Positions 2,239-41,609 of a stretch of DNA of 64,000 nt are shown here, one piece after another. A program made the position numbers and the translations under genes. Each line of letters starts with the position of its first letter. Position 1 is the stretch's first letter. The notes below the pieces were generated by a model that saw only the letters and a program-made list of their open reading frames with translations, was not told where the DNA came from and searched no databases. This DNA is from Pythium myriotylum (lineage: Eukaryota; Oomycota; Peronosporomycetes; Pythiales; Pythiaceae). Location: contig JALJCQ010000026.1 in assembly GCA_023091665.1 (NCBI GenBank), positions 248,001 to 312,000 of the forward strand, written 5' to 3'.

Positions 2239-3489
2239 TCACAAGAACGCAATGTCTGCACGGCGCGAGGGCGTCGCGAGCTCCTCGTAAGAGCTCTGCT
2301 TGACCACGAGCGGCGGCAGCTCGGACACGTGCTCGACGTTATCGCGCTTGGCATCCGACTCGCGCTTGAGACGGCGCTTGTGCTTCACCACGAGCGCCAG
2401 CACCACGAGCACGAAGATGCACACGCCAGCCAGTATGAGCAGGATCATCAACACGGGGCTCGTGTCGCCGCCGGCGTCTGAGCGGGTCGTGATCTGGCGC
2501 ACAATGCCCGTCTGATCGACTGTCGGGACGTCCGTGGTCGGCTCGGGCGTGGGCGCGGGCTTCACAATGCCGGCCTCGACGATGCCAGCCTCCTCGGTGC
2601 CTCGAAGTCGGGGTGCGGAGCCATGACTCCCACTACCCGATGCTGACGACGATGAGGCGGCCGTTGGAGCCTGCGTCGTGGTCGGCGTTGGCGTTGGCGT
2701 TGGCACAGGCGTCGTCTCGCTTGGGCTCGGCGTAGATGCTGGCGTGATCGTCGGCGCCTGGGTGGGCTCGACCTCAAAATCGGCTGGTGAGTCGGCTGCA
2801 CGGCCTTGCGAGAACTGGAGCTTGCCCTTGACGCAGCCACCACCGGTCAGTGAGATGGTTTCTTCGAGGACCTCGCCGTTGACGCTCGTGATGCGGATGT
2901 TGAGCGACGCGAGGTCGGTCTGCGTCGCGCTGTTGCCATCGCGTAAGAAGTAATAGGCTGAGTCGACCATGGTCGTGTCCTGGCCGTTGACCTGGAGACT
3001 CTGGATGCCAACGAGGGCGTTGGTAGGCTGGACAGCGGTCCAGAAGTTGTTGCTGCCGTCCTTGAGGCAGTACTGGATCGGTCCGCGCACGGGGCAGTCG
3101 ACAAACTTCCACTGGATCTTGACGCGGTCGTTCTGGTGGCCCGTGATGCTCAAGAAGACGTCAGGCGAGAGGTCGAGGTCGCCACGCACGCACTCGGGGC
3201 ACTGGTCGACGATGTGCACGATCTCGCTCTTGCGGCTCGAGCACTTGTCGTCGACGCACGAGACTTCAGCGCAGCGTCCGCAGTTCTTCGTGCTCTTGAA
3301 CTGCGGCTTGTTGAGCGCGGCATATTTGGTCTTGGCCTCGTCCGGGAACGACATGAAGTTGCAGTTGCCGTTGCTCGGGTCCGAGAGCGTGTACTGCGTG
3401 CCCTCGCCGGTGAACGGCGAGTTGTCGGCCGCGATGAGCGCCACCAGCAGCAGCAGCAGCACGGTCACCAGTAGATGGCTCGTCGACAT
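2239..3489 (-). CDS. Membrane-anchored expansin-like protein
   Basis: This 416-residue protein starts with a signal peptide (about residues 1-21, hydrophobic VLLLLLVALIAA). A double-psi beta-barrel expansin domain follows (about 25-115), seen in the paired cysteines (NCGRC, SCVDDKC), the HIVDQCPEC motif around the expansin-type aspartate and the DLDLSPDVF segment. A second beta domain (about 120-230) corresponds to the expansin carbohydrate-binding module. Next come a Ser/Thr/Pro-rich linker (about 235-345), one transmembrane helix (about 345-369) and a basic-start cytosolic tail of about 47 residues. Expansins loosen cellulose walls without hydrolysis; oomycete walls contain cellulose, so the role may be in the organism's own wall or on a host wall. 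Anchoring by a C-terminal helix is unusual, since most expansins are secreted. Confidence 0.85.
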   Translation of the reverse strand: MSTSHLLVTVLLLLLVALIAADNSPFTGEGTQYTLSDPSNGNCNFMSFPDEAKTKYAALNKPQFKSTKNCGRCAEVSCVDDKCSSRKSEIVHIVDQCPECVRGDLDLSPDVFLSITGHQNDRVKIQWKFVDCPVRGPIQYCLKDGSNNFWTAVQPTNALVGIQSLQVNGQDTTMVDSAYYFLRDGNSATQTDLASLNIRITSVNGEVLEETISLTGGGCVKGKLQFSQGRAADSPADFEVEPTQAPTITPASTPSPSETTPVPTPTPTPTTTQAPTAASSSSASGSGSHGSAPRLRGTEEAGIVEAGIVKPAPTPEPTTDVPTVDQTGIVRQITTRSDAGGDTSPVLMILLILAGVCIFVLVVLALVVKHKRRLKRESDAKRDNVEHVSELPPLVVKQSSYEELATPSRRADIAFL

Positions 3490-9310: not shown

Positions 9311-10507
9311 TTACGGTGTCACGTCGAAGCGCTTAGAGATGCCAAGCACAAGTTGTTCATCGTTGTCGTCAGTTTCGAAGATTTGAATCATCTCAAAGGA
9401 GCTTGCGTAGTCATTCGTCGAGACCACAATGACTTCCCCTGTGACGACGTTCTGGAGGAGTGCGACTGTCTCCAGAACACGCAAGCTCGCGTTGTCTTTG
9501 ACGTACTCGACCGAAACTTCGATTGACTGGCCCACAGCTTCAAAGAGTGGAGAACCCTTGACGTGCTCGAGGTTAACGTTCAAGTCGGGCACACCATTCA
9601 TCGCGCTCGTGTCCGGTTTTAACACAGGTGTACCTCCAGGAAGGAACGAGACTCCCAGCGAAGGGGCTCCAGTCGTAGGTGAGAGGTCCGTATCCAGTCT
9701 TGGCGCCCCTGGCCCCTCAGCCACTGGCCAGTACACTGGTGGCTCGTCGGGCTTCCACAAGAGCTCAAACACCAGTGTGACCAACGCAGCCACGACGGCG
9801 GCAACATTCACAATGGTCGCAGCGGTGGCAGCCGTGGTCACCTCTGCTATCACCGCCTCCACTACTTGCAAACTCAATTCGGTCACAACAAGCTTCACAG
9901 CATTCTCGACGACAGGACCGGCGTCTCGTGTCTCTACACTCCTCTTGATGCTCTCAACGAGCTCTGCGACGTCGAGAAGAACCCCCACGGCCGAAATTGA
10001 GTCCTTGATCATGACCATCTTGACTTTGCCAGCAACCTTCGGCTCGGCGAGCAGGGCCAGTGGTTCAAATTCAGCATTGAGCTCGACAGCAAGTCTGGGT
10101 CCGTCAGTTTGGTAGTCACTCGAGTCGATCGATGGTAACCTGTCTGGAATGATGCCCTCCGACCGGCGTTGGAGATCCCGAAGCTTTATAGCCTTCTTCA
10201 AGGCGAAGGGGCCAGATCCTTCAGACTTGTTGTTTTTGTTGTCGCTCATCAACTGTGAGCGAATCTGATCGTACTCGGCCGTTGAGACCTGGAGTCTCGC
10301 AAATCTGGACGGCGTGATGCCTTGGCGATGAAGAATGTAGTTATCGGCCTCGTGATACACTGAATCAGTCAGCCAGAGCTCAGTCTCGTCGGGCGCACTG
10401 TCATCGTAATGGAGGCTCAGATGCTGGGACTTCACAAGCCGATAGAACTCGGTGAGAGGCATGATGTGGTACGAGAATCGCATTGGTGTCGCTGCTTCCG
10501 ACGGCAT
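9311..10507 (-). CDS. ART-like N-terminus plus hydrophobic segment, module copy A
   Basis: The chosen start (MPSEAATPMRF) gives 398 residues; an in-frame ATG at 10630 would give 439 but lies upstream of the best initiator. Residues about 8-90 (RFSYHIMPLTEFYRLVKSQ, ELWLTDSVYHEADNYI, FARLQVSTAEYDQI) have the strand-helix-strand pattern of ADP-ribosyltransferase-like domains found in polymorphic effector proteins, but the first-strand Arg of copy B is His here. A hydrophobic Ala/Val-rich stretch follows (about 180-255, ending FELLWKP). Then come about four short repeats of ~15-17 residues carrying a G-x-P-x-L core, and an acidic C-terminus. The divergent partner starts at 11882. The fold assignment is inference from pattern alone, and no activity can be claimed. 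Confidence 0.6.
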   Translation of the reverse strand: MPSEAATPMRFSYHIMPLTEFYRLVKSQHLSLHYDDSAPDETELWLTDSVYHEADNYILHRQGITPSRFARLQVSTAEYDQIRSQLMSDNKNNKSEGSGPFALKKAIKLRDLQRRSEGIIPDRLPSIDSSDYQTDGPRLAVELNAEFEPLALLAEPKVAGKVKMVMIKDSISAVGVLLDVAELVESIKRSVETRDAGPVVENAVKLVVTELSLQVVEAVIAEVTTAATAATIVNVAAVVAALVTLVFELLWKPDEPPVYWPVAEGPGAPRLDTDLSPTTGAPSLGVSFLPGGTPVLKPDTSAMNGVPDLNVNLEHVKGSPLFEAVGQSIEVSVEYVKDNASLRVLETVALLQNVVTGEVIVVSTNDYASSFEMIQIFETDDNDEQLVLGISKRFDVTP

Positions 10508-10572
10508 TGGATTTCGACGTGAACCCGGCGGTGGAGTTATCGGTGGAGAAGTTTTGGCTTGTGCGAGGCTGC

Positions 10573-10590
10573 GTTTTTTGCCGAATGAGC
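10573..10590 (-). promoter_or_regulatory. Initiator-like element for module copy A
   Basis: On the minus strand the sequence reads GCTCATTCGGCAAAAAA, close to the oomycete GCTCATTYYNCAW initiator/flanking element. It lies between the ATGs at 10630 and 10507, which favours 10507 as the start. Confidence 0.45.
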
Positions 10591-10630
10591 AAACCGAGTG
10601 AGCGAGTTTTTCGCTTTCCTCCCGCATCAA

Positions 10631-11808
10631 GCGGATACTTGTCGAACACCGAAGAACACGCGAAGGTAATGTCCTCGGAGGTCAAGACCCACACGCAAAG
10701 TGTTCGACAATCACGCCAAGCGGTAGATGTGAGCAAAAACTAGACCATTCACTCAACGGCTATCAACGCGATAGCGAGCTCTAACTCATCTGCAAGTCCG
10801 GCAACCTAGGATTCCAGGAAAAAAATCGCACGTCAGCTGAGAGGCGAATTCTGTTGTGTCTTGGATCTTTGATTGCACGGCCTCTCTACGGATATACGAC
10901 CCTATTTGGAGCTCTTAACGACCAATCGCGGACCCAACCGCCAGCCAAGCCATTTTGCGCGTGATTCAATTGTTCTTCTACACTGCATGTCTGCCTTTTG
11001 CTCAACTCCAGAGGGAAAGCAGACTATATCCGTTAGCGAGGAGGAAACCTCGGACCCGACACATAGGCCTGCGATCGCGATGAAGCTCAGTGTCACACGC
11101 ACGGGGCATAATGTGTCTGTGCGCGTACGAACTTCGCGTTAAATATATGCGGCTCGTGCTTCGACCCCTCCAAAGGTGCGAGTTCCGTCACCCATCTTTG
11201 GTCTAGGGTCAAGGTCGCAGCCGCACCAACTGCTCAACCATAGACTGTGATGTTTATGTGGCTGGAAGTGTACCTACGATGGTGCCTTCCACACGTCCAT
11301 CCACATTGAGTCACTTCATCCTGGAATCTGTCCAGTTCCAGTATGATGTGACTCACGGAACATAGCGAATCCAATACAATAAGACCAACAAGAGACGCTG
11401 CAAACGAAGAAATGCTTCAGCGACGATCATCCAACTCCAAAACTCTCTCACGCAGAGTGTGAGGGAGAGGAGTCGGTCCATTGTTACCATACGAGAAGCA
11501 AATCGTTTGACTTCATGTGCTCTTTCCTCGAGCGGCAAGCCGCCGGCGTACTGCAGTCAGGCAATCGGAGGTCTCAGTTCTCGGTTGCCGTTCTCCAGTC
11601 CCCGGTAAGCATCTCGTCCAGGATGGTCCAGAACACAAAGCAGATGCTAGAGCTTTCTAGTATGACGAGAAAGTTCGTTAATCTTGTCTTTTACGTTCAA
11701 CAACAAAATTTCTTCACCATTCGTCCACCCGGTCGAGCAAACCACTCCAATCTCCTCCTATCCCAACAGCATAGTTAACCACGGCAAGAGCGATCTTCCA
11801 CGATCGAC
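10631..11808. other. Divergent intergenic region of module A
   Basis: About 1.2 kb between the two head-to-head genes of module A. It contains short frames without family features; I see no RNA gene. Confidence 0.4.
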
Positions 11809-11822
11809 TCACTTTGACATTT
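11809..11822 (+). promoter_or_regulatory. Oomycete initiator
   Basis: TCACTTT followed two bases later by CATTT, 60-73 bp upstream of the ATG at 11882. It fits TCAYTYY with the downstream flanking element. Confidence 0.55.
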
Positions 11823-11881
11823 CTGTCGACCCGACCAAGTCAACCAAGACTCACCACTTCACCTCTCCGCAACTGAGAATC

Positions 11882-12373
11882 ATGGGCAACGCCAACTGCA
11901 CGCTCCAGAACGACTCCTTCCAGCAAGTCACTGTGCGTTCGTACAACAATGCTGATATCATCTACTTGAGCCCCTTCCAGACGTACACGCTCAACCCAGG
12001 CGAGCAGAAGACCATCAATGCTGCAGCCGACGCATGGGGGCTCAAGGTCAAGGTGGCCTTTGAAGGCGAAGAGTTCTCAGATGCCCATGGCTTCTCCAAC
12101 GGCTCTTTCCACCGCGTGTCTGAGGTTGTGCCGCTCCACTCGCTCAAGCTCGTGAACGACTCGGACGCCGTCGTTGAGTTCGTTGTCACGGACCGCAACA
12201 ACCGCAACTCCACTGCGACTGTCTCGCCGAATACGGTCTTCGAGTTCAAGAATCTCATCCGCGGAGAGGTCACGGTCTGCGTCGTCAAGAAAGGCTTGGC
12301 CTCGAGCGTCACCCGCTCCAACAGCAACGGTACTGTTCACTGGAACGGCACGAACCTCCTTGCCTCCAACTAA
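11882..12373 (+). CDS. MGNANC small protein, module copy A
   Basis: The protein has 163 residues starting MGNANC. The frame extends further 5', but this ATG matches the paralogue at 14447 exactly in length and lies just after the initiator. Gly2 followed by Asn fits N-myristoylation, and Cys6 could be palmitoylated, so membrane attachment is likely. The body is a compact beta-rich domain with a conserved central block (YNNAD, TLNPGEQKTINAAADAWGL, RVSEV-PLHSLKL-NDSD, GTVHW). There are no transmembrane helices. I do not recognise the family. Both copies sit head-to-head with an ART-like gene, suggesting the two products act together. Confidence 0.75.
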   Translation: MGNANCTLQNDSFQQVTVRSYNNADIIYLSPFQTYTLNPGEQKTINAAADAWGLKVKVAFEGEEFSDAHGFSNGSFHRVSEVVPLHSLKLVNDSDAVVEFVVTDRNNRNSTATVSPNTVFEFKNLIRGEVTVCVVKKGLASSVTRSNSNGTVHWNGTNLLASN

Positions 12374-12637
12374 GGAGGTCAATTGCACTTGACTACAAGA
12401 CGTCGTGCCGAGCGACATCATGCACTCAACATCTACCATTTGCATCGTCTGTCTCTTTCGTACTACTATGTGGTGGCGATATCTAGTCGCTCGTTCGTGA
12501 GGATACTTCCGCACGGGTTGGATTTCATAGGGATCGTCATAGTTTGGCAGCCACGAAGTAAAGAAGAGACTATTGCTTTTTGTTACGTTTTCATTGAAGA
12601 TATCCTTCGAACTCCGTCAATTCGGAGGAGTTGGATC

Positions 12638-13975
12638 TTACGCATCTTCCTCCATTGCCTCCTCCGTTCGATCTTCCTCGTCTATGCGTCTCGAGATGCC
12701 CAGAATCAGCTCTTCCTCATCATCGCTCGAGTCGAACCTTTGGATCATCTCAAATGAACTCTCACTGTCACTTGTGGAGATGACAAGCACTTCGTTTGTG
12801 GCGTCGTTCTCGAGTATCGCGACTGTCTCATCGACTCGAAGGCTCGCGTTGTCTTCAACAAATTCCATCGACGCCGTGATCGACTGCCCCACCGCTTCGA
12901 AGTCGGGGGCCCCTCGCACAAGTCGCAGACTCGCATTGAGATCAGGCACGCCATTGAGGAGGCATCTGTCAACTTGTAATGGTGGAGCATTCGAGGCCGT
13001 CGGAGCCACGGCCAAACGCGGGGCACCTCTCGCAGCTGAGAGGTCCACGTTGAGTCTCGGCGGGCCTGGTCCCTGAGACACCGGCGTGAATCTCGGCGGT
13101 GTTTCGGGTTTCCAGAGCAACTCAAAGGTAACTGCAACCAACGCAGCCACAACTGTAGCGATCCCCATTGTTGCGGCTCCAGCAGCCACGGCACCAGCTC
13201 CTTCCGTCGCCACACCCATGGCATACGAAGCCAAGGTCGTCGCAGCGATGGAAACTGCAGTCTCCACCGCCGGCCGCGCGTCTCGACTCTCCACGCTCTT
13301 GTGGATCGCAGCGGACAGCAGTGCGATATCGATGGCCACAGCGAGAACGACCGCTCCGTTCTCGGCCAGGAACATTTTGACTTTACCCGGAGGCTTCGGC
13401 GCCGGCTGAATTCCGTCTGGAGTCACAATGTGGCTAAATGCATCGCCATTAGGCCCCTGGACGCGGATTTCCTTGATCGCCTCGTTGAATTGATTCAACC
13501 CTTTCTTGGTCTTGAAGCCAACGTTGATCTTGTCAAACATAGCAGGAGGAAGAGGATCTAAGATCTGGCCCCCACACCTCTCCCTGATTGCGGGACTCTT
13601 CATGAGCCGCTCCAAATTGAAGAAGCTTGCGCCCGCAGGTCGCTTAGCCGAGTTGCGTTGGTAGACGAGCGCCGAACGGATCCGCTCGTACGCCGATTTG
13701 GATACCTCAAGCCGCGCGAGTGTGGACAGCTCGCGGCCTTGGCGCTTTACCACGTATTTGCTGGCGTGACGACGAAGCGACTCAGTCAACCAGAGCTCGC
13801 TACGCGTCTTGATGCCCTCGTACGCAAAGGCCAGTCGCTGAGTTTGTGCCAAGTGGTAGAACTCGTCGATGTGCATAGCGCGATACAGGAAGCGCGTAGG
13901 AGGCGGCGGTGTAGGTGCAAAGAGAACCTTGGGCATACCCGGAAACCCTCGATTGGATTTGTCTGTAGTCTCCAT
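12638..13975 (-). CDS. ART-like N-terminus plus hydrophobic segment, module copy B
   Basis: This 445-residue paralogue of the gene at 9311 keeps the same order. The ART-like region (about 27-110) shows FLYRAMHIDEFYHLAQ, SELWLTESLRRHASKYV and LARLEVSKSAYERI, here with Arg in the first strand. A Gly/Ala-rich hydrophobic segment (about 215-290) has glycine-zipper spacing and ends FELLWKP. Short G-x-P repeats follow (about 300-360), then an acidic tail (SSDDEEELILGISRR). The hydrophobic segment could span or insert into a membrane. The gene ends tail-to-tail with copy A's small gene and starts head-to-head with the small gene at 14447. The enzymatic reading rests on pattern resemblance only. Confidence 0.65.
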   Translation of the reverse strand: METTDKSNRGFPGMPKVLFAPTPPPPTRFLYRAMHIDEFYHLAQTQRLAFAYEGIKTRSELWLTESLRRHASKYVVKRQGRELSTLARLEVSKSAYERIRSALVYQRNSAKRPAGASFFNLERLMKSPAIRERCGGQILDPLPPAMFDKINVGFKTKKGLNQFNEAIKEIRVQGPNGDAFSHIVTPDGIQPAPKPPGKVKMFLAENGAVVLAVAIDIALLSAAIHKSVESRDARPAVETAVSIAATTLASYAMGVATEGAGAVAAGAATMGIATVVAALVAVTFELLWKPETPPRFTPVSQGPGPPRLNVDLSAARGAPRLAVAPTASNAPPLQVDRCLLNGVPDLNASLRLVRGAPDFEAVGQSITASMEFVEDNASLRVDETVAILENDATNEVLVISTSDSESSFEMIQRFDSSDDEEELILGISRRIDEEDRTEEAMEEDA

Positions 13976-13994
13976 GGCGTTTGGGATGTTGAGT

Positions 13995-14008
13995 GGTTTG
14001 TAGAGTGA
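13995..14008 (-). promoter_or_regulatory. Initiator for module copy B
   Basis: The minus strand reads TCACTCTACAAACC, matching TCAYTYY-N-CAW. It is 20-33 bp upstream of the ATG at 13975, giving a leader of about 30 nt. Confidence 0.5.
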
Positions 14009-14446
14009 ACGCGTTGCCTACTGCTGGGGGACTGGAGAGACTTCTTGCAACTGAAAGAGTCGAAGTGTCAGATCGTCCACTGGAAGTACTGTTGCTCGCA
14101 GGTTGGATATGTACAGTCGCGAAGCGTATGGTGCGTCTTCAGTTCGCTCCTAAAGTCGGCTGGGTGCAGGGTAAGAGCAGCATGCAGCTGTTAGAGCTCA
14201 TGGAAAAATCGGTCTTTGCGGGCCTCCATCTCCGCCTAACTGATCTAGTTTCCAGACTTGCTGCGTGGGAGAGAAGAGTGAGGAAGAGGAAGAGAGAAAT
14301 ATACTCGAGTGATATCCACTTTGACTTCCATTCCCTATGGTCGAAGGGCGACAGAACGTTCGTAAGGGCTCGCTACTCCAGTGCCGGCATTTCAAAAATC
14401 TCCCCCTCCCGTCGACACCAGTGAACTTCCGTAGATCCCCAATACC

Positions 14447-14938
14447 ATGGGCAATGCCAACTGTGTCATCGAGAACGACTCGCACCAGCAGGTCCACGTG
14501 CGTTCGTATAACAATGCCGATCTCATTTACTCGACGTCTTTCGACAGCTACACGCTGAACCCCGGCGAGCAAAAAACTATTAACGCGGCAGCGGATGCCT
14601 GGGGCTTGAAGGTTAAAGTGTGTTTCGAACACGAGGAATTCTCATCGCCGTTCTTTTGCAAGAACGGCTCGCGCCACCGCGTCTCTGAGATCCTGCCGCT
14701 ACACTCGCTCAAGCTCAAGAACGACTCGGATGCCGAGGTGCAGTTCTTCGTGACGGATAGAAACGACCGCAACTCGAGCGTGACGATTGCGTCAAAGTCC
14801 TCCATGGAGCTCAAGAACTTGATCCGCGGCGACGTCTCGGTTAGCGTCGTCAAGGACGGCGTGGCGTGCAACGTCACGCGCTCCACGAGCAATGGCACGG
14901 TCCATTGGGACGGAAAGAATCTCGTGGCGAGCCATTGA
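14447..14938 (+). CDS. MGNANC small protein, module copy B
   Basis: The protein has 163 residues, the same length as its paralogue at 11882, with very similar sequence throughout. MGNANC at the N-terminus suggests myristoylation plus palmitoylation. The invariant core includes RSYNNAD, TLNPGEQKTINAAADAWGL and the C-terminal GTVHWDGKNL. Differences cluster around residues 60-72, where copy B has HEEFSSPFFCKNGSRHR. The start lies 471 bp from the divergent ART-like gene, much less than the 1.4 kb in module A. The function is unknown; a membrane-tethered binding partner of the ART-like protein is inferred from the conserved pairing. Confidence 0.75.
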   Translation: MGNANCVIENDSHQQVHVRSYNNADLIYSTSFDSYTLNPGEQKTINAAADAWGLKVKVCFEHEEFSSPFFCKNGSRHRVSEILPLHSLKLKNDSDAEVQFFVTDRNDRNSSVTIASKSSMELKNLIRGDVSVSVVKDGVACNVTRSTSNGTVHWDGKNLVASH

Positions 14939-19768: not shown

Positions 19769-20158
19769 ATGACCAACTGGATCAAGAGTGAGAAGTGTGG
19801 CGACGACAACAGCCACTCGGACGGTTACTCGTCCGCCGACTCGACCGAGACATGTCGGTACAACGGATGCTCCTGTCCGAACCTCCGTGTAGTCCTTCCG
19901 AATGGATCGCTACATCGCTATTGTGAGCACCACCGCGTACGTGCCCCACACTCGGACCGTCGCCAGCGACAGCGCGACCGCCTCCTTCGCTATCTCGTCA
20001 ACGCATTACAGAACGGGGACCCGATCCAGGGCCTGGACGACGAAAGCGAGGACACGACGCCGCGTCGACGCCCGCGGCTCGTCCTGCTCGGGAACCAGCA
20101 GACGCTCATCCTCGGCGTCGTGCTCTCGGACCGTCGAGAGCTTGAGCAGGAAGCTTAA
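19769..20158 (+). CDS. Small Cys/His (zinc-binding-like) basic protein
   Basis: With the chosen start (MTNWIKSEK) the protein has 129 residues. The centre carries CRYNGCSCPNLRV followed by NGSLHRYCEHHR, a Cys-x4-Cys-x-Cys...Cys-x2-His arrangement that could bind zinc. A strongly basic stretch (HSDRRQRQRDRLLRYL) resembling a DNA- or RNA-contacting helix comes next, and a short hydrophobic C-terminus ends the protein. I do not recognise the family; a small nuclear DNA-binding protein is a guess from composition. Its last 27 coding bases lie inside a 146-bp tandem duplication that continues downstream. Confidence 0.55.
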   Translation: MTNWIKSEKCGDDNSHSDGYSSADSTETCRYNGCSCPNLRVVLPNGSLHRYCEHHRVRAPHSDRRQRQRDRLLRYLVNALQNGDPIQGLDDESEDTTPRRRPRLVLLGNQQTLILGVVLSDRRELEQEA

Positions 20159-20355
20159 ACTCGACAATCGTTCTTGAAGACGTCGGTGCATATTTCAACA
20201 AGAGAGTGAGAGAAAGAAAGAAAGGAGAGTGGAGGGGGAAGATTTACTACAAGAATCGCCACCCACGAGTCCACCGTCTCTCAGATCGTCGAGAGCTGGA
20301 CCAGCAAGCTCAAACACGACGATCGTACTCAAGACGTCGGTGCATATTTCATTAA

Positions 20356-20392
<37 letters not shown>

Positions 20393-20432
20393 CACTTCAA
20401 ATCAAAAGCACCACCACCCAGAAGTCCACCGT
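20132..20432 (+). repeat. 146-bp tandem duplication
   Basis: Copies at 20132-20277 and 20287-20432 share CGTCGAGAGCT, AAGACGTCGGTGCATATTTC, AAGAGAGTGAGAGA and the end GTCCACCGT; both are 146 bp and they are separated by 9 bp. The first copy includes the 3' end and stop codon of the gene at 19769. The second contains an (AG)n run (about 20361-20388) where the first has imperfect AAAG units. Confidence 0.75.
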
Positions 20433-25445: not shown

Positions 25446-26906
25446 TTACTCGCTGTCGAAGCGCTCGACCGAGTGCTTGGTCAATGGCAGCAGCACGAGC
25501 TCGAGCATCATGCCGGCCAAGTACACAAACGACGTGATGAGGAAGCAGACGCGGTAGCCGTAGCTGTCGATGATGAAGCCGCCGATGACGGCCGAGCCCG
25601 ACCACGAAAACACCGAGAGCCCTTCAAGGGCGTTCCAGCGCGCGCGAATCTCCTTGGGCACGTGGTCCATGAGGATCGAACGGCGTAGCGGTTGCGAGCA
25701 GCGCATCATGCCGCCGCGCATGAGGAAGAGCACGAGCTGGAACGCGAGCGGGCGCGCAAACGACATGAGGAAGAGACAGACGAGCGAGAACAAGCGCGTG
25801 ACCACGATGATCGGCATGCGGCCGAGGGCGCGCGAGCTGCGCTGGCTCACCCACGAGAGCGCCATGACGAGGATCGGCTGCAGCATGAACAGGATGCTCA
25901 CTTGGATCGGGGTCATGCCGTACTCTTCCTTGAAAAAGAGTGGGAAAAAGTTGATAGTCATCCCGGCGCCGTTGCTGATGATAAAGTCGGACGCGAAGAT
26001 GAGCCACGGGATGTGGGTCGAGTTGAAGCACCAGAAAGTAGCAACCTTGGCGTCGTGGTGCGCCGAATCCGTCGTCTTGGCGGCTAGCGGAGACGTCGTC
26101 ACAAGCGCAGTCTTCTCCGTGGGCTTGGACTCGGTGGCGTCACCGTCCTTCACGTCGTCGTAATCGTACTCGATCTCCATCTCATTGTTGACGACCGACG
26201 GTGTGCGCAGAGGCTGCTCACTCGTTTGTGACACGCGGCTTAGCGACCGCGCGCGCTCGCCGATCTCGACGTCGTTCGTCGTGGCGAGTTCTTCGAACTC
26301 GTTCTCGAGCGCGTAGTCGTCGTTGAAGCGGAAGAGCAGGCATGCCGTGATGGCCATGAGCACGGTGCCAAACTCGAGTACGTGCGTGAGCTCGTTGATC
26401 TGCCAGACGTCGCCGTAGTAGAGGAAGAGCAGCACGGCGATGAGCGGACCGAGCACCATCGCGAGGTTGCCGACATTGTACTTGATCATGAATGGGAAGG
26501 AGCGCTGGCCGTGCGGGATCGAATCGGCGAAGAGCGCCTCGAGCGCCGGGTTGTTGAAGGCCGAGAACATGCCCCAGATGCCGAAGACGACGTAGAGCAG
26601 CGTCATGGAGGTCTGCTCGACCGCGAGGAACGTGAGCGCGGACGCGAGCAGCCCGACGACGCCAGAGATCTTGAGGATCGTGTCGCGGCGCGTCTTGTCG
26701 GCGAAGTAGCCCGCTGGCAGCGAGAAGACGAGCTGCGAGATGCCCTGGATGCCCTTGACGACGCCCACGGGCTTGTTCGAGTTGGTGAGCACGAAGACGA
26801 AGCCGGCGATGATCTGCTGGAAGAGGATCGAGCGCGCGGCCCAGAGGAAGAAGGTGGCGACGTACGCCGTGCGCACGTTGCGGTTGATCTGCCGCCAGTG
26901 GCTCAT
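25446..26906 (-). CDS. Major facilitator superfamily transporter
   Basis: The start at MSHWRQINRNVRT was chosen because the paralogue at 42491 aligns from there; an upstream in-frame ATG at 26963 adds 19 residues. The product has 486 residues with about 12 transmembrane helices in two sets of six. The MFS motif A appears as GYFADKTRRD after helix 2. A long acidic loop (about residues 215-275) separates the halves, as in most MFS proteins. The second half shows FIISNGAGMTINFFPLFFKEEY and RMPIIVVTRL. The substrate is unknown. No intron is seen, unlike its paralogue. Confidence 0.8.
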   Translation of the reverse strand: MSHWRQINRNVRTAYVATFFLWAARSILFQQIIAGFVFVLTNSNKPVGVVKGIQGISQLVFSLPAGYFADKTRRDTILKISGVVGLLASALTFLAVEQTSMTLLYVVFGIWGMFSAFNNPALEALFADSIPHGQRSFPFMIKYNVGNLAMVLGPLIAVLLFLYYGDVWQINELTHVLEFGTVLMAITACLLFRFNDDYALENEFEELATTNDVEIGERARSLSRVSQTSEQPLRTPSVVNNEMEIEYDYDDVKDGDATESKPTEKTALVTTSPLAAKTTDSAHHDAKVATFWCFNSTHIPWLIFASDFIISNGAGMTINFFPLFFKEEYGMTPIQVSILFMLQPILVMALSWVSQRSSRALGRMPIIVVTRLFSLVCLFLMSFARPLAFQLVLFLMRGGMMRCSQPLRRSILMDHVPKEIRARWNALEGLSVFSWSGSAVIGGFIIDSYGYRVCFLITSFVYLAGMMLELVLLPLTKHSVERFDSE

Positions 26907-27308: not shown

Positions 27309-29000
27309 TTAGCATCCGTCGCCACCGGCGATGATGAGGCAGGACGTGCTGTCGAAGATACCCATGAGATTAGTGGAGACCGACCAGACAAAGGCGAACG
27401 AGACGAAGAGCACTGTGAGCACGCCGAGCACGCGGCTGGAGCCGCCGTTACGCTTGAGCTCCTGAGTGGCTTCTTTTTGCGGTGGGAGAGCGAAGAGGAA
27501 GAGCCACGAGATGACACTGCTGCCGTACATGATGAGGATCGTGTACGTGAGGTCCCAGCGCACGGCGTTCGTGTCGGTCTTGATGCGTTCGTTCGAGAGG
27601 TCCCAGTTGCGGTCGATGATCTTGGTCAGCGTGGCCGCGAACGGCGACGAGAGGTTCGAGACCGTCGTGAAGAGCCCGTACATTGCACACTCTTGGCCTT
27701 CGCCAGCGAGTTCGACGATCACGAACGTGCCGATGAGGAAGTTGACGCCGTACGGGAGCTGCGAGGCCACGGGCAGGCCGAGCCAGAACCACTGGCTGCG
27801 GAATAGGTCCCAAACGGTGACGAAGGTCGTGACACCGTCCAAGATGATCACGGTCACGCCCGTGACCACGATCATGACTCGCCAGCTCCAGTGGAGACCG
27901 TACTTGCCCGTGACGGCGATGCCGACCATGAACGCGAACGAGCCGATAATAGTCGAAAGCGTGTTGTTTATGGGCGTGACGTGGACAAGAATGCTCTGCA
28001 CGGGCGTCGACGACGTGTACGTGATGCTTGAAAACATGTTGGCGAAGAAGAGGTAGAACATGACCTGGTACACCGCGCGGGTCTGCACGACGCGCCAGAG
28101 CTCGGCCATGTACTCGGTGAAGTTGGCAGCCTCGTGCTTCTCTTCTTTGATGAAGAACCACGTGATGAGCGTCATCGGCGCCAACACGATGCCCAAGATC
28201 AACATGAGCGTCGGGAAGCTCAGCGAGAAGTCGAAGTCGCCGCCGTACTGGTGGCCGTTGAACGCAAAACCCGTGACCACTTGGCCGACGATGTTGAACG
28301 CTGTGCGCGTGCCGTAGATTGCGGACTGCGTCGTGCCGCGCACAGCGAGGGGCTCACGTTGGGCGAGCTCGACGACGATGCCGTCGGCGCAGACATCGGA
28401 CATCAGATACCCAAAGGCGCTGAGCATCATGAGCAGCACGTATTTCCCACCGCTCGTCGGGGCAGCAGCGTTCGCTCGCGCCACCGCTGCGTTATACGCC
28501 TGCGCATCGTCGACGGGGTCGAGCTTGGCGTCTGCCGGGTTAGCCCAGTAGGGCTTTTCCATGGGTGTGAAGCCCATGATCAACAGCATGATGATGCAAA
28601 TGCTCCAGCCGATGACCATGTAAGGCCGACGGCGGAACCCGAAGATTGGCACGCAGTCAGACAGTAGTCCGTAGAAGAACTTGAAGGACCACGGCAGTTG
28701 CACGAGCGTCGAGGCGGTGACAGCCGTCGCGCCGTTCGTGTTGAGGTAGTTCTGGAGCACGGGGTAGACCGTGGCGGGCAGCACGGCGTCGATGAGTCCC
28801 ACGCCAGCGTACTGGAAGAGCACACCCACGTAGTCTCTGCTGAGAAGGCTCGGTGTCCCACCCTGACGCAGCGCGCCGTCCTCGAGATCGGCTTCAGGGG
28901 TCTTGATGTTTGCGAAGCCATCGGCTTCTTTCGGTTGCGACGTGTTGCTTAAGAACGAGGCACGCTGGGCGATGTCCAACTTGGAGCCGGTGGTCGACAT
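27309..29000 (-). CDS. Folate-biopterin transporter (BT1 family), copy 1
   Basis: This 563-residue membrane protein has about 12 helices. The BT1 family signature is clear: GLIDAVLPATVYPVLQNYL in helix 1, PWSFKFFYGLLSDCVPIFG, RRRPYMVIGWSIC, and FGYLMSDVCADGIVVELAQRE. These proteins carry folates or pterins across the plasma membrane in trypanosomatids, plants and oomycetes; substrate choice cannot be read here. The cytosolic N-terminus (KLDIAQRASFLSN) is shared with the next gene. It lies 3' of a close paralogue in the same orientation, so the pair is a tandem duplication. Confidence 0.9.
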   Translation of the reverse strand: MSTTGSKLDIAQRASFLSNTSQPKEADGFANIKTPEADLEDGALRQGGTPSLLSRDYVGVLFQYAGVGLIDAVLPATVYPVLQNYLNTNGATAVTASTLVQLPWSFKFFYGLLSDCVPIFGFRRRPYMVIGWSICIIMLLIMGFTPMEKPYWANPADAKLDPVDDAQAYNAAVARANAAAPTSGGKYVLLMMLSAFGYLMSDVCADGIVVELAQREPLAVRGTTQSAIYGTRTAFNIVGQVVTGFAFNGHQYGGDFDFSLSFPTLMLILGIVLAPMTLITWFFIKEEKHEAANFTEYMAELWRVVQTRAVYQVMFYLFFANMFSSITYTSSTPVQSILVHVTPINNTLSTIIGSFAFMVGIAVTGKYGLHWSWRVMIVVTGVTVIILDGVTTFVTVWDLFRSQWFWLGLPVASQLPYGVNFLIGTFVIVELAGEGQECAMYGLFTTVSNLSSPFAATLTKIIDRNWDLSNERIKTDTNAVRWDLTYTILIMYGSSVISWLFLFALPPQKEATQELKRNGGSSRVLGVLTVLFVSFAFVWSVSTNLMGIFDSTSCLIIAGGDGC

Positions 29001-29050
29001 GGTCGACCGAAGAGTCTTGGTGCGGCTGGGAGGTTTGTGGAGAACGAAGC

Positions 29051-29064
29051 GAGTTGGCGAATGA
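29051..29064 (-). promoter_or_regulatory. Initiator-like element, BT1 copy 1
   Basis: The minus strand reads TCATTCGCCAACTC, matching the element of the second BT1 gene in position and sequence (one mismatch to TCAYTYY). Confidence 0.4.
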
Positions 29065-29536
29065 GAACTCCACTGGGGGAACTCGGACTGGGAACTAATT
29101 GCTCTTCACTTGATGGGTCATCAAAGAGTGGTCCAGAACAGAAGAACGCCGCTTCCATGGAGCCTCCCTCCTACCGTATCCTGTTCTGTATCGCCTTTCG
29201 CCTGGCTCAGGCGAATGGTAGCCCGTCACAGGCAGTCGAGGAACGGAAAGGCGTCACTCGTGACATGGAGACGCGGTGTCTGCGACGTGAGACGACTTGG
29301 ATTCCTATCTTCCCGTCGAAGCGGTTCGTGGAACGCACGAACGAGTCTCTGTCGCCGAGGCAGTGGTGGAACTTGGACCCATCCTCTGGCTTCGTCCACT
29401 GATCTGATTGCGAATAGGATCGCGTCTATGTGCTAGTGTAGATGAAGCTCATTTCCTCGACGCATGAATCTCTACTTTGCTCAGGAACCTGCAGAATCGA
29501 TCGATGTTGCGATTCGCTCGATAATATCGAGTGAAT
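29065..29536. other. Intergenic
   Basis: Upstream region of BT1 copy 1; frames on the plus strand here lack features of genes. Confidence 0.4.
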
Positions 29537-29573
29537 CCTTTGGCTAAGCACATATAATGTGCTTAGCCAAAGG
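29537..29573. repeat. 37-bp perfect inverted repeat
   Basis: Arms CCTTTGGCTAAGCACAT and ATGTGCTTAGCCAAAGG (17 bp each, perfect) flank ATA. It lies between the two BT1 genes, 187 bp beyond the stop of copy 2. Confidence 0.8.
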
Positions 29574-29759
29574 AGCCTTCGTTCGCCTCAGTTTTCAAGA
29601 CGGCAGCAGGGATTGACACAGTGAATTTTGATGGAACCTCGCTGTCGCATCTTGGACCATCTCCACGGTGATAGAAGCGATGAGAAGTGAATGCAACGTG
29701 CATTTCCATCCAAGGGATGCGGATCTACTTACTCTGTCACTCCTACAATAATCGAGGGT

Positions 29760-31454
29760 TTAGCAGCCATTGCCGCCAGCGATGATAAGACAAGAAGTGC
29801 TGGGGAAAATCCCCATCAAGTTGGTCATGACCGACCACACGAACGCAAACACAAGGCACACGACCGTGATGCCACCGACGATCTTGCTGTTTCCTCCTTT
29901 GCGCAGGAGCTCCTGTGCGGCTTCTTTCTGAGGTGGGAGAGCCACAAGGAAGACCCAAGAGAGGGCTGTGCTCGCATACATGACAAGGATGGAGTAGGTA
30001 ATGTCCCAGCGCACAGACTTTGTGTCGGTTTTGATGCGCTCGTTGGAGAAGTCCCAGTTGCGGTCGATGATGTTGGTGATCGTGGTAGCGAATGGGCTTC
30101 CCAAATTGGAGACGGTCGTGAGAAGACCGTACATGGCTCCCTCCTGGCCCTCGCCTGCAAGCTCGACAATCACGAATGTACCGACGAGGAAGTTGACACC
30201 GCTTGGGAGCTGAGCCGCAACAGGCAGGCCAAGCCAGAACCATTGGCTGCGCACAACGTCCCAAATCGTCAAGAACGATGTAAGTGCGTCCATCAATGTC
30301 GCAGTAAGACCCGTGACGACGATCATCCATCGCCAGTTCCAATGGAGACCATACTTTCCGGTGGCGGCGATACCAGCCAGATAAATGAACGAGCCGAGGA
30401 TTCCGAACAGTGTGCTGTTGAGAGGAGTGACGTGGACGAGGATGCTCTGAACAGGTGACGACGCGGTGTACGTGATGGCCGTAAGCATGTTGGCGAAGAA
30501 GAGGTAGAACATGACCTGGTACACGGCACGATTTTGCACGACACGCCAGAGATCGGCCATGTACGTAGAGAAGACGGCAGGCTCACGCTTCTCCTCCTTG
30601 ATGAAGAACCACGCGATAGGCAGAATTGGCGCCATGCATACTCCCAAAATGAGCATCAGCGCAGGGAAGCTCAGCGAGAAGTCGAAGTTGCCGCCGTACT
30701 GGTGACCATTAAATGCAAAACCAGTGATGAAGGCACCGACAATGTTGAACGCCGTGCGCGTGCCGTAAATGACGGACTGCGTGGTGCCTCGCTTCGCGAG
30801 TGGTTCGCGCTGGGCAAGCTCGACGACCATGCCGTCAGCACACACGTCGGAGAGAAGATACCCGAAAGCACTGAACATCATGAGCAGGACGTACTTGCCG
30901 CCACTGTCGGGTGCATTCTTGTTGGCACGAGCCACAGCCGCAGCATAAGCGTCCGGCTCAGAGTCCGGATCGATGTTGGCGTCCGATGGCTTGGCCCAGT
31001 AGGCATCTTCCATGGGCGTGAAGCCCATGACGAAGAGCATGATGATGCAAATGCTCCAGCCGATGATCATGTACGGACGACGGCGGTAACCGAAGATCGG
31101 TACACAATCGGAGAGGACGCCGTAGAGGAACTTGAATGACCATGGGAGCTGCACGAGTGTGGAGGCCGTGAGTGCAGTGCGGCCGGATGCGTTGAGGTAG
31201 TTTTGTAGTACAGGGTAGATGGTGTTGGGGAGCACGGCATCGACGAGACCGACAGCGGCGTACTGGAGGACTACGCCGATGTAGTCTTTGCTGAGGAGGT
31301 TGGGGACTCCTCCCGCTCGCAATGCTCCGTTCTCGAGTTCAAGGTCGGGAGTCTTCATGCCATTGTATCCATCGCCTTCTTTGTTGGCTGCGGAGACGCT
31401 GCTCACGAAGGAAGCGCGCTGGGCAATGTCGAGCTTGGTGGCCTTGGACGCCAT
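29760..31454 (-). CDS. Folate-biopterin transporter (BT1 family), copy 2
   Basis: This 564-residue paralogue of the preceding gene carries the same landmarks (GLVDAVLPNTIYPVLQNYL, PWSFKFLYGVLSDCVPIFG, RRRPYMIIGWSIC, FGYLLSDVCADGMVVELAQRE) and an identical-style C-terminus (PSTSCLIIAGGNGC versus DSTSCLIIAGGDGC). The start MASKATKLDIAQ was chosen over an in-frame ATG at 31592 because copy 1 aligns from there and an initiator lies just upstream. It is a plasma-membrane pterin/folate carrier by family. Codon use is less GC-extreme than in copy 1, suggesting that the two have diverged for some time. Confidence 0.9.
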   Translation of the reverse strand: MASKATKLDIAQRASFVSSVSAANKEGDGYNGMKTPDLELENGALRAGGVPNLLSKDYIGVVLQYAAVGLVDAVLPNTIYPVLQNYLNASGRTALTASTLVQLPWSFKFLYGVLSDCVPIFGYRRRPYMIIGWSICIIMLFVMGFTPMEDAYWAKPSDANIDPDSEPDAYAAAVARANKNAPDSGGKYVLLMMFSAFGYLLSDVCADGMVVELAQREPLAKRGTTQSVIYGTRTAFNIVGAFITGFAFNGHQYGGNFDFSLSFPALMLILGVCMAPILPIAWFFIKEEKREPAVFSTYMADLWRVVQNRAVYQVMFYLFFANMLTAITYTASSPVQSILVHVTPLNSTLFGILGSFIYLAGIAATGKYGLHWNWRWMIVVTGLTATLMDALTSFLTIWDVVRSQWFWLGLPVAAQLPSGVNFLVGTFVIVELAGEGQEGAMYGLLTTVSNLGSPFATTITNIIDRNWDFSNERIKTDTKSVRWDITYSILVMYASTALSWVFLVALPPQKEAAQELLRKGGNSKIVGGITVVCLVFAFVWSVMTNLMGIFPSTSCLIIAGGNGC

Positions 31455-31498
31455 GGCTTGGTCTCGATCGCTGGAGAGCCGAGTGTGCTCGAGGAGGC

Positions 31499-31512
31499 AG
31501 ATTGGAGAATGA
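31499..31512 (-). promoter_or_regulatory. Initiator plus flanking element, BT1 copy 2
   Basis: The minus strand reads TCATTCTCCAATCT, almost exactly TCATTYYNCAWTTT. It predicts a leader of about 55 nt for the ATG at 31454. Confidence 0.6.
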
Positions 31513-32921
31513 GGGAACGGCGATTGCTTCGACGCAAGCAGTGGTTGAGAGGTTTGGGGAGGTCGCTGCTTTCTGTTCTCTGTCTGGTTCATCAGCTCAC
31601 CCTCCTGACGCGTGCCAAAGTGACTGCAATCACACAGTATTCTAGGTGAGAAGCCAAGTGGCTACGATAACCATGACGTGAGAACAGCCACTTTTGGAGA
31701 TGATCTCAGTGTTATTCTTACTCCTGACGCTGTGGGAGAGGGGTTTACAACTCATCATTGATCTCGGTCAGCAAACTCTGACTGACGGGAGAGTTCGGTT
31801 TGCACGAATGCGCCGTACGTTTAATAATTACGCTGCCCGAGGGACCAAGGTCAAACGAATAATGGGCTCTCGTCTTTCCTGCAAAAGTGCACGCGCACCG
31901 CGTCATCACCGTTGATTGGTATTAGGCAGTTGCCAATTGAAGTGGTGAAAGCAGCGAGTCAACTCGTGAATCAGCCTCCACCTTCTGTTGTACTGTATCC
32001 ACTTTACGACTCGTCAAATAGCGACTAGTGCAACATTGCCATCTCACGAAATCCTACTGCAGTACCTTACTCAACGCGGCAGTTGAGGCGGGTCACAGGG
32101 TACTGAACAAAGATCGATCGCAGTCGAGTTTACAGCAACCCGCATATCCTACTGTATCGCGAGCTTGTGTATGCTCCACTCGCAACAAGTCAGCAATCAC
32201 CCGATTCACGAGTGATCTGAAAAGCAGCGGCTGCGTCGCTTCAGGATCAGTGGTGGCTTCAACAATCGATTTTCGAATTCTCAGAGGGAACGACTCGTTC
32301 CCTTTGAGAATTGGACCTGGCGAGAGGCTTGCAGTGTGAATTATAGTCTCACTGTAATTGCTCGGTTGCAATGCAGCGATGCTGGCCGACACCTCAACGA
32401 GAAACGCTGATCTTCAGGGACTTAACTCATACGCCGTGGACTACTGACTGCAGGCTGTCGCATAGGAAGCCACACGGATGAGAGGGCGGCAAGCTGCTCA
32501 TCATCACGAGTATCTGCTCCTGTGCGCAACGGAACAAGATTACTGTTCGCTTAGTGCTGACAAGACGGCTCCAGTTGTGCAGATCATATTTTGTCGGAAC
32601 TTGGAGCGAACGAACCAGTTTCGAATGAATTTGGACGGGTAGAGAACATTTGACCACCATTACGAGTTGCCGGAAGCTCTGTGACGGGGCAAATTGCTCC
32701 TTACCAACCACGCGTCAAGAACCACGAGCAACTTCAGCATGTGGAGAGATCAAATGGTTTGCTCCTGAAAAAATGCTTTGGATGATGTACAAGTGTTCGC
32801 AGATAATGCTCAAGATTTGCGGTTTCATGAACGCGACGCGCGGACATGCTGTGAGCACATGCTCTGCGATACATTCAAGGCACCACCCCGTCACAATCCA
32901 AGACCACCGAGTTTTGTGAAA
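31513..32921. other. Gene-poor stretch
   Basis: About 1.4 kb with lower GC than its surroundings and no convincing frame. It contains the palindrome at 32276-32312. Confidence 0.5.
32276..32312. repeat. 37-bp palindrome
   Basis: Eighteen-base arms (AATTCTCAGAGGGAACGA and TCGTTCCCTTTGAGAATT, one mismatch) around a single C. It is the same overall length as the repeat at 29537 but unrelated in sequence. Confidence 0.7.
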
Positions 32922-39770: not shown

Positions 39771-41609
39771 ATGATGCATCTCAAGTTCCCTCTGCCGACG
39801 GGCTACTTCCCCAAGTTCGAGCTCTCGCCCGACGAGACGCTCGCGTACAAGGAGCTCGTGACCGATCTCGTCAAGGAGGCGCGCCGCGAGCACGACGCCT
39901 TCGTGTCTTCGCAGCAGCGCCACGTCGACGCGCGCAAGTGGAAGCTCGCCAAGGCCAAGGACAAGCTCCACATCTACAAGCGCCGCTCCGAGTACGGCGC
40001 CGCCGCCATCGGGCTCACGGGCCGCCGCCACGACCTTGTGAACGTCAGCGACCGCTCCGAGTCCGAGAGCTCGGGCTACAGCCAGTCGGCCGGCTCCTCC
40101 ACGGCCGCGGGCTTCGCGTCGCCCGCGCGGCTCGGCGCGCACCACCGCAGCGCCGCCTCGCGCAGTCGCGTCGGCTCGCACAGCTCCAGTCGCAGCGGAG
40201 GAGGCGACAACGAGCAGCAGCCCCACCGCCGGCGGCTCGAGCCCACGCTGCTGGCCACGGGACTCATCGACGGCTCGGTGGACGACCTCGTCTGGGCGTT
40301 CCACGAGCCGACGGCGAGCGAGACCAAGGCCGCCGAGGCGCTGCTGGGCGGCGACGCGCTCGTGGACGCCGTCGTGCTCCACACGATCAAGAGCTCGAGG
40401 ACCACGTACCTCGGGCTCAAGTGGAAGCTCTGCCGCACGCCCGGCGGCAACCGCGACATGTGCTTCCTCGAGTACGTCGGCGTGGCCAACGACGCCCGGG
40501 GCCAGCGCTACGGCTTCAAGGTCGTCGAGTCGGTCCAGCTGCGCAACTGCCCGCCCTTCGCCGACAACTCGATCATCCGCACCGAGCTCTCGTTCGTCTA
40601 TTTATTCCGCGAGAGCGCCGCGCCGGGCGTCGTCGACGTCTACCTGCAAGGAGCCTTCGACTCGTCGGGCGACGCCGTCACGGCCGGCGGCGTCGGCGAC
40701 GCGCGCAGCACCATGGACATGCTGCTCGAGATCGAGACCCGCATGGAGATCGCCGAGGCCAAGAAGCTCGCCGAGCTCGTGGCCAGGCAAGCCGCCGCGC
40801 CGCCCAAGCCCAAAGGCTCGAACGTCTGCTCCATCTGCCGCGCCAAGCCCGGCATGCTCTCGTCGCACCTCCAGTGCCAGGGCTGCGGCGGCGTCATCTG
40901 CAACAAGTGCAAGATGAAGAAAGTGATCGTGACGACCAAGCGAGGACAGGTCCACAAGGTCAAGATCGCCTGCTGCAAGATCTGCCTCGTCAACGTCAAA
41001 GAGACCTCGCCCTTCGAAGGCGAGCCCATCAACGCGCAGCCGCCGCAGCTCCGCGCGCTCACGAAAAAGCCCTCGGCGTCCAGCCTGCGCGGCGACGAGC
41101 CCCACCAGCCGCGACAAGCCGCCGGGCTCGAGAGCACGCAGGAGCTCGCGCTCGCGCTGCCGCACACGCACACGCACGGGCTCAAGGGCAAGCAGCTCGC
41201 CACGGGCGACTCGTTCGCCGACACCGAGTTCTCCGGCTCGCTCGAGTCCTGGCAGTCGAGCTCGGTCTCGTCCTCGTACTCGGACCTCGACGACTCGTAC
41301 GGCTCGCCGAGCAACCAGCTCGTGGTCGCGCACAAGATGCCGGCGCTCGCCGAGTCGCCGCGGAGTCGCGGGCCCCACCAGCCCCAGTACGCCTACTCGA
41401 GCCTGGCCAACGGCACGATGGTCGCCACGTCAGGAGCCTACCACCGCGCTCCACCGCCACCGCTGCCGCCACAGCGAGGCGCGCCGCAGGATCTCAACCA
41501 GCACCGGCTCGGGCTCTACAACCAGATGCTCGAGCTCCAAGTGCAGGCCGAGCGCGCCTACAACCTGGCCAACCAGAACGCCACGTACATGCACCAGCAG
41601 CACTCCTAG
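39771..41609 (+). CDS. START + FYVE-like zinc-finger protein 1
   Basis: The protein has 612 residues; the next codon is also ATG. The START-like lipid-binding region (about 5-330) shows the family landmarks: helical N-terminus with DARKWKLAKAKDKLHIYKR, LLATGLIDGSVDDLVW, YLGLKWKL, FLEYVGV, GFKVVESVQL and VVDVYLQGAF. A Ser-rich insert sits at about 95-150. The FYVE-like finger is at 353-405 (CSICRAKPG, CQGCGGVICNKC, CCKICL). The tail is Ser/Pro-rich and ends in the helix YNQMLELQVQAERAYNLANQN shared by most paralogues. The classical PI3P-binding RKHHCR motif is absent. START domains bind lipids, so a role at endosomal or plasma membranes is inferred. It is the first of eight paralogues in 24 kb. 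Confidence 0.8.
   Translation: MMHLKFPLPTGYFPKFELSPDETLAYKELVTDLVKEARREHDAFVSSQQRHVDARKWKLAKAKDKLHIYKRRSEYGAAAIGLTGRRHDLVNVSDRSESESSGYSQSAGSSTAAGFASPARLGAHHRSAASRSRVGSHSSSRSGGGDNEQQPHRRRLEPTLLATGLIDGSVDDLVWAFHEPTASETKAAEALLGGDALVDAVVLHTIKSSRTTYLGLKWKLCRTPGGNRDMCFLEYVGVANDARGQRYGFKVVESVQLRNCPPFADNSIIRTELSFVYLFRESAAPGVVDVYLQGAFDSSGDAVTAGGVGDARSTMDMLLEIETRMEIAEAKKLAELVARQAAAPPKPKGSNVCSICRAKPGMLSSHLQCQGCGGVICNKCKMKKVIVTTKRGQVHKVKIACCKICLVNVKETSPFEGEPINAQPPQLRALTKKPSASSLRGDEPHQPRQAAGLESTQELALALPHTHTHGLKGKQLATGDSFADTEFSGSLESWQSSSVSSSYSDLDDSYGSPSNQLVVAHKMPALAESPRSRGPHQPQYAYSSLANGTMVATSGAYHRAPPPPLPPQRGAPQDLNQHRLGLYNQMLELQVQAERAYNLANQNATYMHQQHS

Follow-up and report, generated by a model that had tools for sequence, protein, structure and literature searches.

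The window analyzed here is a stretch of 64,000 nt from the oomycete Pythium myriotylum (GCA_023091665.1, a genome of 58.7 Mb in 55 contigs; contig JALJCQ010000026.1, positions 248,001–312,000, forward strand). It contains a block of four intact open reading frames (ORFs) that form two divergent gene pairs in tandem (9311–12373 and 12638–14938), as a first-pass annotation had proposed. Each pair encodes, on the minus strand, a large protein with a hydrophobic segment and G-x-P repeats and, on the plus strand, a smaller protein designated MGNANC after its first six residues, which are identical in both copies. The MGN start and the length of 163 residues, both noted at first pass, apply to each MGNANC copy. 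Along the block, the order is large protein 1 (−), MGNANC1 (+), large protein 2 (−), MGNANC2 (+).

Large protein 1 (9311–10627) has 438 amino acids when counted from the first ATG at 10627 (position 10630, listed as the start, is a TTG), and large protein 2 (12638–13975) has 445; the two are 45% identical. MGNANC1 (11882–12373) and MGNANC2 (14447–14938) are 70% identical. Pairing, orientation, and partner lengths (438/445 and 163/163 amino acids) are kept between the copies, which agrees with the earlier description. Each family has two members in the genome, and all four genes lie in this cluster. The divergent spacers (10628–11881, 1254 bp; 13976–14446, 471 bp) resemble each other only at chance level (blastn best E 0.071), and no common promoter sequence was detectable in them. 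Synonymous divergence (dS; NG86 method) is ∼1.9 for the large protein and ∼1.3 for MGNANC, and the whole-gene ratios of nonsynonymous to synonymous divergence (dN/dS) are ∼0.26 and ∼0.18, respectively. The duplication itself is established, and so is purifying selection; because dS is near saturation and dN/dS is this low, the duplication of the two-gene block is, judged from the sequences, an old one, and each of the four genes looks to be under purifying selection.

Architecture of the large protein

A search of 5.8 billion proteins, in which scoring was limited to the 7994 candidates with the most shared words, found one relative of the large protein outside this genome, P0004 (427 amino acids, encoded on a 15-kb contig; 51% identity to copy 2 over 96%). 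In copy 2, an N-terminal domain (13388–13894, −), which matches no family and is partly absent from copy 1, is followed by a hydrophobic hairpin (13100–13387, −), five G-x-P repeat units (12875–13066, −), and a C-terminal domain (12680–12925, −). Copy 1 contains a hydrophobic segment (9749–9901, −), five repeat units (9518–9709, −), and the C-terminal domain (9323–9568, −), which is 62% identical to that of copy 2 (dN/dS 0.10, with dS saturated). The Gly/Ala hydrophobic segment mentioned at first pass is thus present. In copy 2, hydrophobic stretches at residues 201–228 and 260–290 flank the turn R-D-A-R-P, and a turn R-D-A-[RG]-P is common to all three large proteins. In copy 1, Kyte-Doolittle windows >1.6 lie within residues 244–294, and nothing above this value corresponds to the first hydrophobic helix of copy 2; copy 2 and P0004 both have the hairpin.

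The G-x-P repeats proved sharper than first claimed, with an established period of 13 residues. The five units are mostly G-x-P-x-[LF] and are spaced 13 or 12 residues apart. The motif G-x-P occurs six times in copy 2, five times in copy 1, and four times in P0004, counts that were reached by 32, 79, and 817 of 5000 whole-protein shuffles, respectively. In repeat regions picked by eye, the score at lag 13 was reached by 0/5000 shuffles for copy 2, 1/5000 for copy 1, and 85/5000 for P0004, and the maximum over lags 5–26 by 0, 50, and 81 of 5000. The best lag is 13 in copy 1 and 24 in P0004, where period 13 is weak. The AlphaFold model of the large protein (built from three sequences; mean predicted local distance difference test score [pLDDT] 34.5) is uninformative; its C-terminal β strands, although of low confidence, suggest that the C-terminal domain is probably β-rich. 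A signal-peptide-like stretch, as expected of a secreted oomycete effector, is not apparent in any of the three large proteins: by hydropathy windows alone, with no dedicated predictor, no 19-residue window exceeds 1.6 (Kyte-Doolittle) before residue 195.

Distribution of constraint in the large protein

Constraint is specific to domains, and its distribution depends on which homologues are compared. Copy 1 and copy 2 are 38% identical over residues 28–128, 32% over residues 129–196, 41% across the hairpin, 50% across the repeats, and 62% across the C-terminal domain. For copy 2 against P0004, the corresponding values are 56%, 48%, 69%, 44%, and 40%. In the C-terminal half (repeats plus C-terminal domain; 139 columns), copy 2 matches copy 1 in 79 columns and P0004 in 58, whereas in the remainder (230 columns) it matches copy 1 in 88 and P0004 in 136. 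This contrast was reached by 0/10000 column permutations and 4/369 circular shifts, statistics that flatter it, the halves having been defined after the regional identities were seen and from the three sequences that exist. Copy 1 has the long branch over the N-terminal part and the hairpin, and P0004 has it over the C-terminal domain. The even spread of synonymous differences along the gene (44/89 versus 42/80 identical-residue codons; 25/43 versus 32/47 fourfold sites) speaks against gene conversion as the cause. As a part held between both copies and drifted in P0004, the C-terminal half is, from these alignments, a natural candidate for the interface with MGNANC.

The MGNANC protein

Proteins are N-myristoylated at a pattern M-G-{EDRKHPFYW}-x-x-[STAGCN]-{P}, which both MGNANC proteins match. 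In the window, 3/201 ATG-initiated ORFs of at least 60 amino acids fit it, two of the three being MGNANC. MGNANC is predicted to be myristoylated at Gly2, and perhaps also palmitoylated at Cys6. Of the lipid anchor claimed at first pass, the sequence pattern stands in both copies; the attachment of the lipid is what we infer from it.

The best AlphaFold model of MGNANC2 (pLDDT 77.3; the one confident run among five, based on two sequences) is all-β and was read as two tandem β-sandwiches of 7 and 8 strands, encoded by ∼14447–14692 and ∼14693–14935. Transferred to MGNANC1, the limits of these modules are ∼11882–12127 and ∼12128–12370. The first match of the model in Foldseek is a Vps13 adaptor-binding (VAB) domain with a PxP peptide (E 7.4e-6). 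In the model, Asn10 and Asn92 close strands 3–10 and 86–92, the opening strand of each module. By sequence, the VAB profile PF25036 is not listed for MGNANC at E up to 10, and the best E-value with the VABs of the genome itself (11 frames) is 0.13. MGNANC would accordingly resemble VAB modules by its predicted fold, not by its sequence. Several Vps13-like genes are present in the genome, with 12 VAB matches spread over 8 contigs. Foldseek matches of the model also include the phospholipase C-type enzymes 9gy2 and 8yk5, and the second module matches the phospholipase C C-terminal domain PF05506 (PLipase_C_C) in both copies below the gathering score (E 0.01 and 0.017; 17.2 and 16.5 bits; gathering 24.4); the whole-genome scan returned no match to this family.

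Do the paired proteins act together?

These features are consistent with a model, put forward tentatively, in which the C-terminal half of the large protein docks MGNANC and the co-duplicated pair acts jointly. A divergent two-gene block, duplicated in tandem long ago, would have given rise to two sets of intracellular, membrane-associated, co-acting proteins. In the large protein, a variable N-terminal domain would be followed by the hydrophobic hairpin, then by five G-x-P-x-L repeats of 13 residues that form a strap, and last by the C-terminal domain. MGNANC, with its two β-sandwiches, would be kept at the membrane by its lipid and would dock on the proline-containing repeats and the C-terminal domain, as VAB modules take up the strand of a Pro-X-Pro adaptor. 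Docking would position or restrain the hairpin and the N-terminal domain. The C-terminal half is placed at the dock because it is held between the two copies, which have MGNANC, and has drifted in P0004, for which no MGNANC was found. For the joint action of the partners proposed at first pass, domain-specific constraint is indirect support; binding to the large protein and its regulation by MGNANC are what we infer.

Just as likely, and to be held just as tentatively, functionally unrelated neighbors may have been co-duplicated by ordinary tandem segmental duplication, with pairing, orientation, and lengths as by-products. Several observations weigh against docking in this respect. Kept pairing and orientation are no proof of function because a single tandem block duplication yields both by default; the spacers are not conserved; and the halves of the large protein were chosen post hoc, as noted above. 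The absence of an MGNANC companion for P0004 is a weak argument in either direction. In the collection that holds P0004, no homologue of MGNANC was found at E ≤ 0.001 among 8 candidates, which is a weak test because the same kind of search, made with residues 24–204 of copy 2, missed P0004 itself (of 299 candidates, not one had E ≤ 10), and a relative of ∼50% identity could escape likewise; P0004 shares only 12/177 five-residue words of this segment. A relative of MGNANC could also lie off the contig of P0004 or contain an intron. Divergent neighbors also occur elsewhere in the window: in a hand-picked set of 27 window ORFs, they make up 6/26 neighbor pairs, that is, 4 besides the two discussed here, and BT1 transporters at 27309–31592 are likewise tandem-duplicated. 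In Phytophthora infestans, the intergenic distance averages 430 nt and adjacent genes are usually distinct in expression (PMC11267843). On the other side, both members of both copies have stayed intact to near synonymous saturation, and it is mainly one half of the large protein that is constrained between the copies; both points speak against unrelated neighbors.

Scans of prokaryotic and viral contigs yielded no confirmed relative. Both families look like orphans in the collections searched, a status that is provisional because these collections are taken to be eukaryote-poor and the protein search is able to miss relatives. At present, the block is a well-defined, testable orphan module rather than a demonstrated new system.

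Toxin-like readings of the large protein

An ADP-ribosyltransferase (ART)-like fold had been suggested for the N-terminal domain of the large protein, which would make the pair an ART effector with a membrane-tethered regulator, or a two-part self-recognition or defense system. The fold finds no backing: ART families are not listed for the large proteins in Pfam or NCBIfam (E up to 10) or in PHROGs or PADLOC (E up to 1), in searches whose HMMER filters discard many weak matches; sequence searches with the large proteins found no ART structure; and the model is too poor for a fold search and speaks neither for nor against. The pattern YRAM...WLTES, on which the suggestion was based, occurs in copy 2, whereas copy 1 reads YHIM and WLTDS. 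What speaks for it is that copy 2 and P0004 share YR ... WL[TS]ES ... EIR[VI]QGP, with small changes in P0004, and that the order YR, W-L-T-E-S, E-I-R-V in copy 2 resembles that of ARTs of the R-S-E type. In the ART clades R-S-E and H-Y-E, the three active-site residues come from three motifs (PMC3482391). Here, the candidate Arg (Arg32 in copy 2) is R, H, and R in copy 2, copy 1, and P0004, and the segment holding the candidate Glu (Glu169 in copy 2) is absent from copy 1, which speaks against catalysis by that copy; an ART with three active-site residues is therefore not what the three homologues have in common, though copy 2 and P0004 by themselves could be one. Taken together, we consider this reading very improbable.

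The hairpin gave rise to another idea, a colicin-like membrane-damaging hairpin restrained by lipid-anchored MGNANC, which would amount to a eukaryotic effector–inhibitor pair. Three weak matches are in register: each aligns one and the same stretch with the terminal hairpin of colicins, with R-D-A-R-P falling at their W-[RK]-P turn. The Pfam family Colicin (PF01024) matches copy 2 with E 0.2, at 11.9 bits below the gathering score of 23.4, and is a weak lead only; a profile of the three sequences lists a single structure at E up to 10, pyocin S5 (E 0.17); hhalign against six colicins gives P 0.054; and copy 1 carries a SLATT-like hint (E 0.28). Set against these, the hhalign probability is 1%, and 3/60 column shuffles of the segment score equally high; the unrelated DUF3325 outscores colicin on the same stretch (E 0.048); neither copy 1 alone nor P0004 alone matches the colicin family, and the whole-genome scan, in which the control did match in E. 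coli, returned none; Ala stands in place of the colicin Trp; and copy 1 has a weak first hydrophobic helix. A colicin-like pair is thus unlikely, although it would, if true, be a eukaryotic membrane effector pair. Among toxin and trafficking families, none comes near its cut-off, the weak matches being Colicin (E 0.2) and a type VI secretion system (T6SS) effector family (E 2.7); compared with polymorphic toxin–immunity loci, in which a toxin is fused to a trafficking module and the immunity gene lies next to it, an adjacent partner gene is present, whose role might be immunity. More doubtful still is the fullest version of this idea, namely, a lineage-restricted oomycete device in which the colicin-like hairpin and the variable N-terminal domain would be leashed, via the proline-repeat strap and the β domain, by a myristoylated β-sandwich inhibitor. 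The matched pairs would then have drifted apart in the effector half and stayed alike in the docking half, possibly as a self-killing or self-recognition pair without described relatives.

Other features of the window and the genome

The BT1 locus (27309–31592, −) consists of two tandem ORFs with 75% DNA identity over 1.7 kb, the first of which matches the BT1 transporter family. It is flanked by ORFs that are transporter-like by eye (25446–26906 and 42925–44043), in opposite orientation and with ∼73% DNA identity in two 0.5-kb stretches. A cluster of related long ORFs extends over 39771–63358; six are linked by DNA similarity and more are alike by eye, and the ORF at 39771–41609 has a FYVE finger match below the cut-off (E 0.00012). 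At 2239–3489, a double-psi β-barrel/barwin (expansin-like) protein is encoded, whose signal peptide and membrane segment at the C terminus were recognized by eye. A direct tandem repeat of ∼155 bp (77% identical) lies at 20123–20432. Elicitins are an oomycete family; matches to them number 135 in the genome, compared with none in 14 control genomes, which upholds the assignment to the oomycetes. Contig C1 carries a dense elicitin array on both strands (∼2.48–2.56 Mb), several members of which score identically.

Comparison with known systems

In copy 2 and P0004, a few residues of the large protein follow one another as in the ART superfamily (R-S-E and H-Y-E clades); profile and structural support is absent, and the candidate residues are not kept in copy 1. 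The colicin pore-forming domain (PF01024) has a hydrophobic helical hairpin after a [DN]-W-[RK]-P turn, and the large protein has in common with it a hydrophobic hairpin after a D-x-[RK]-P-like turn; in contrast, the match is nonsignificant, the upstream helices are not recognized, and the Trp is missing. The likeness of MGNANC to the bacterial phospholipase C C-terminal domain (PF05506) consists in the subthreshold match of its second module in both copies, and MGNANC differs in having no phosphodiesterase domain. The extracellular domain of PepT2 and the T6SS lipoprotein SciN are transthyretin-like sandwiches, a common fold; their identity to MGNANC is 10–14%, and no context is shared.

A further comparison is that with the VAB domain of Vps13 and its Pro-X-Pro adaptors, such as Mcp1. 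VAB consists of six modules of nine strands, with an Asn kept at the end of strand 1 (PMC8978259). The MGNANC model likewise shows tandem β-sandwich modules with an Asn ending the first strand, and in both cases, a proline-containing motif is found in the partner, a membrane protein. Unlike VAB, MGNANC has two modules, of 7 and 8 strands; it is also free-standing, carries the pattern for a lipid anchor, and is paired with a protein having G-x-P-x-L repeats rather than a single PxP. If the docking model is correct, MGNANC would represent the adaptor-binding principle of Vps13 in a free-standing, lipid-anchored form, and the shift of constraint along the large protein would mark the interface.

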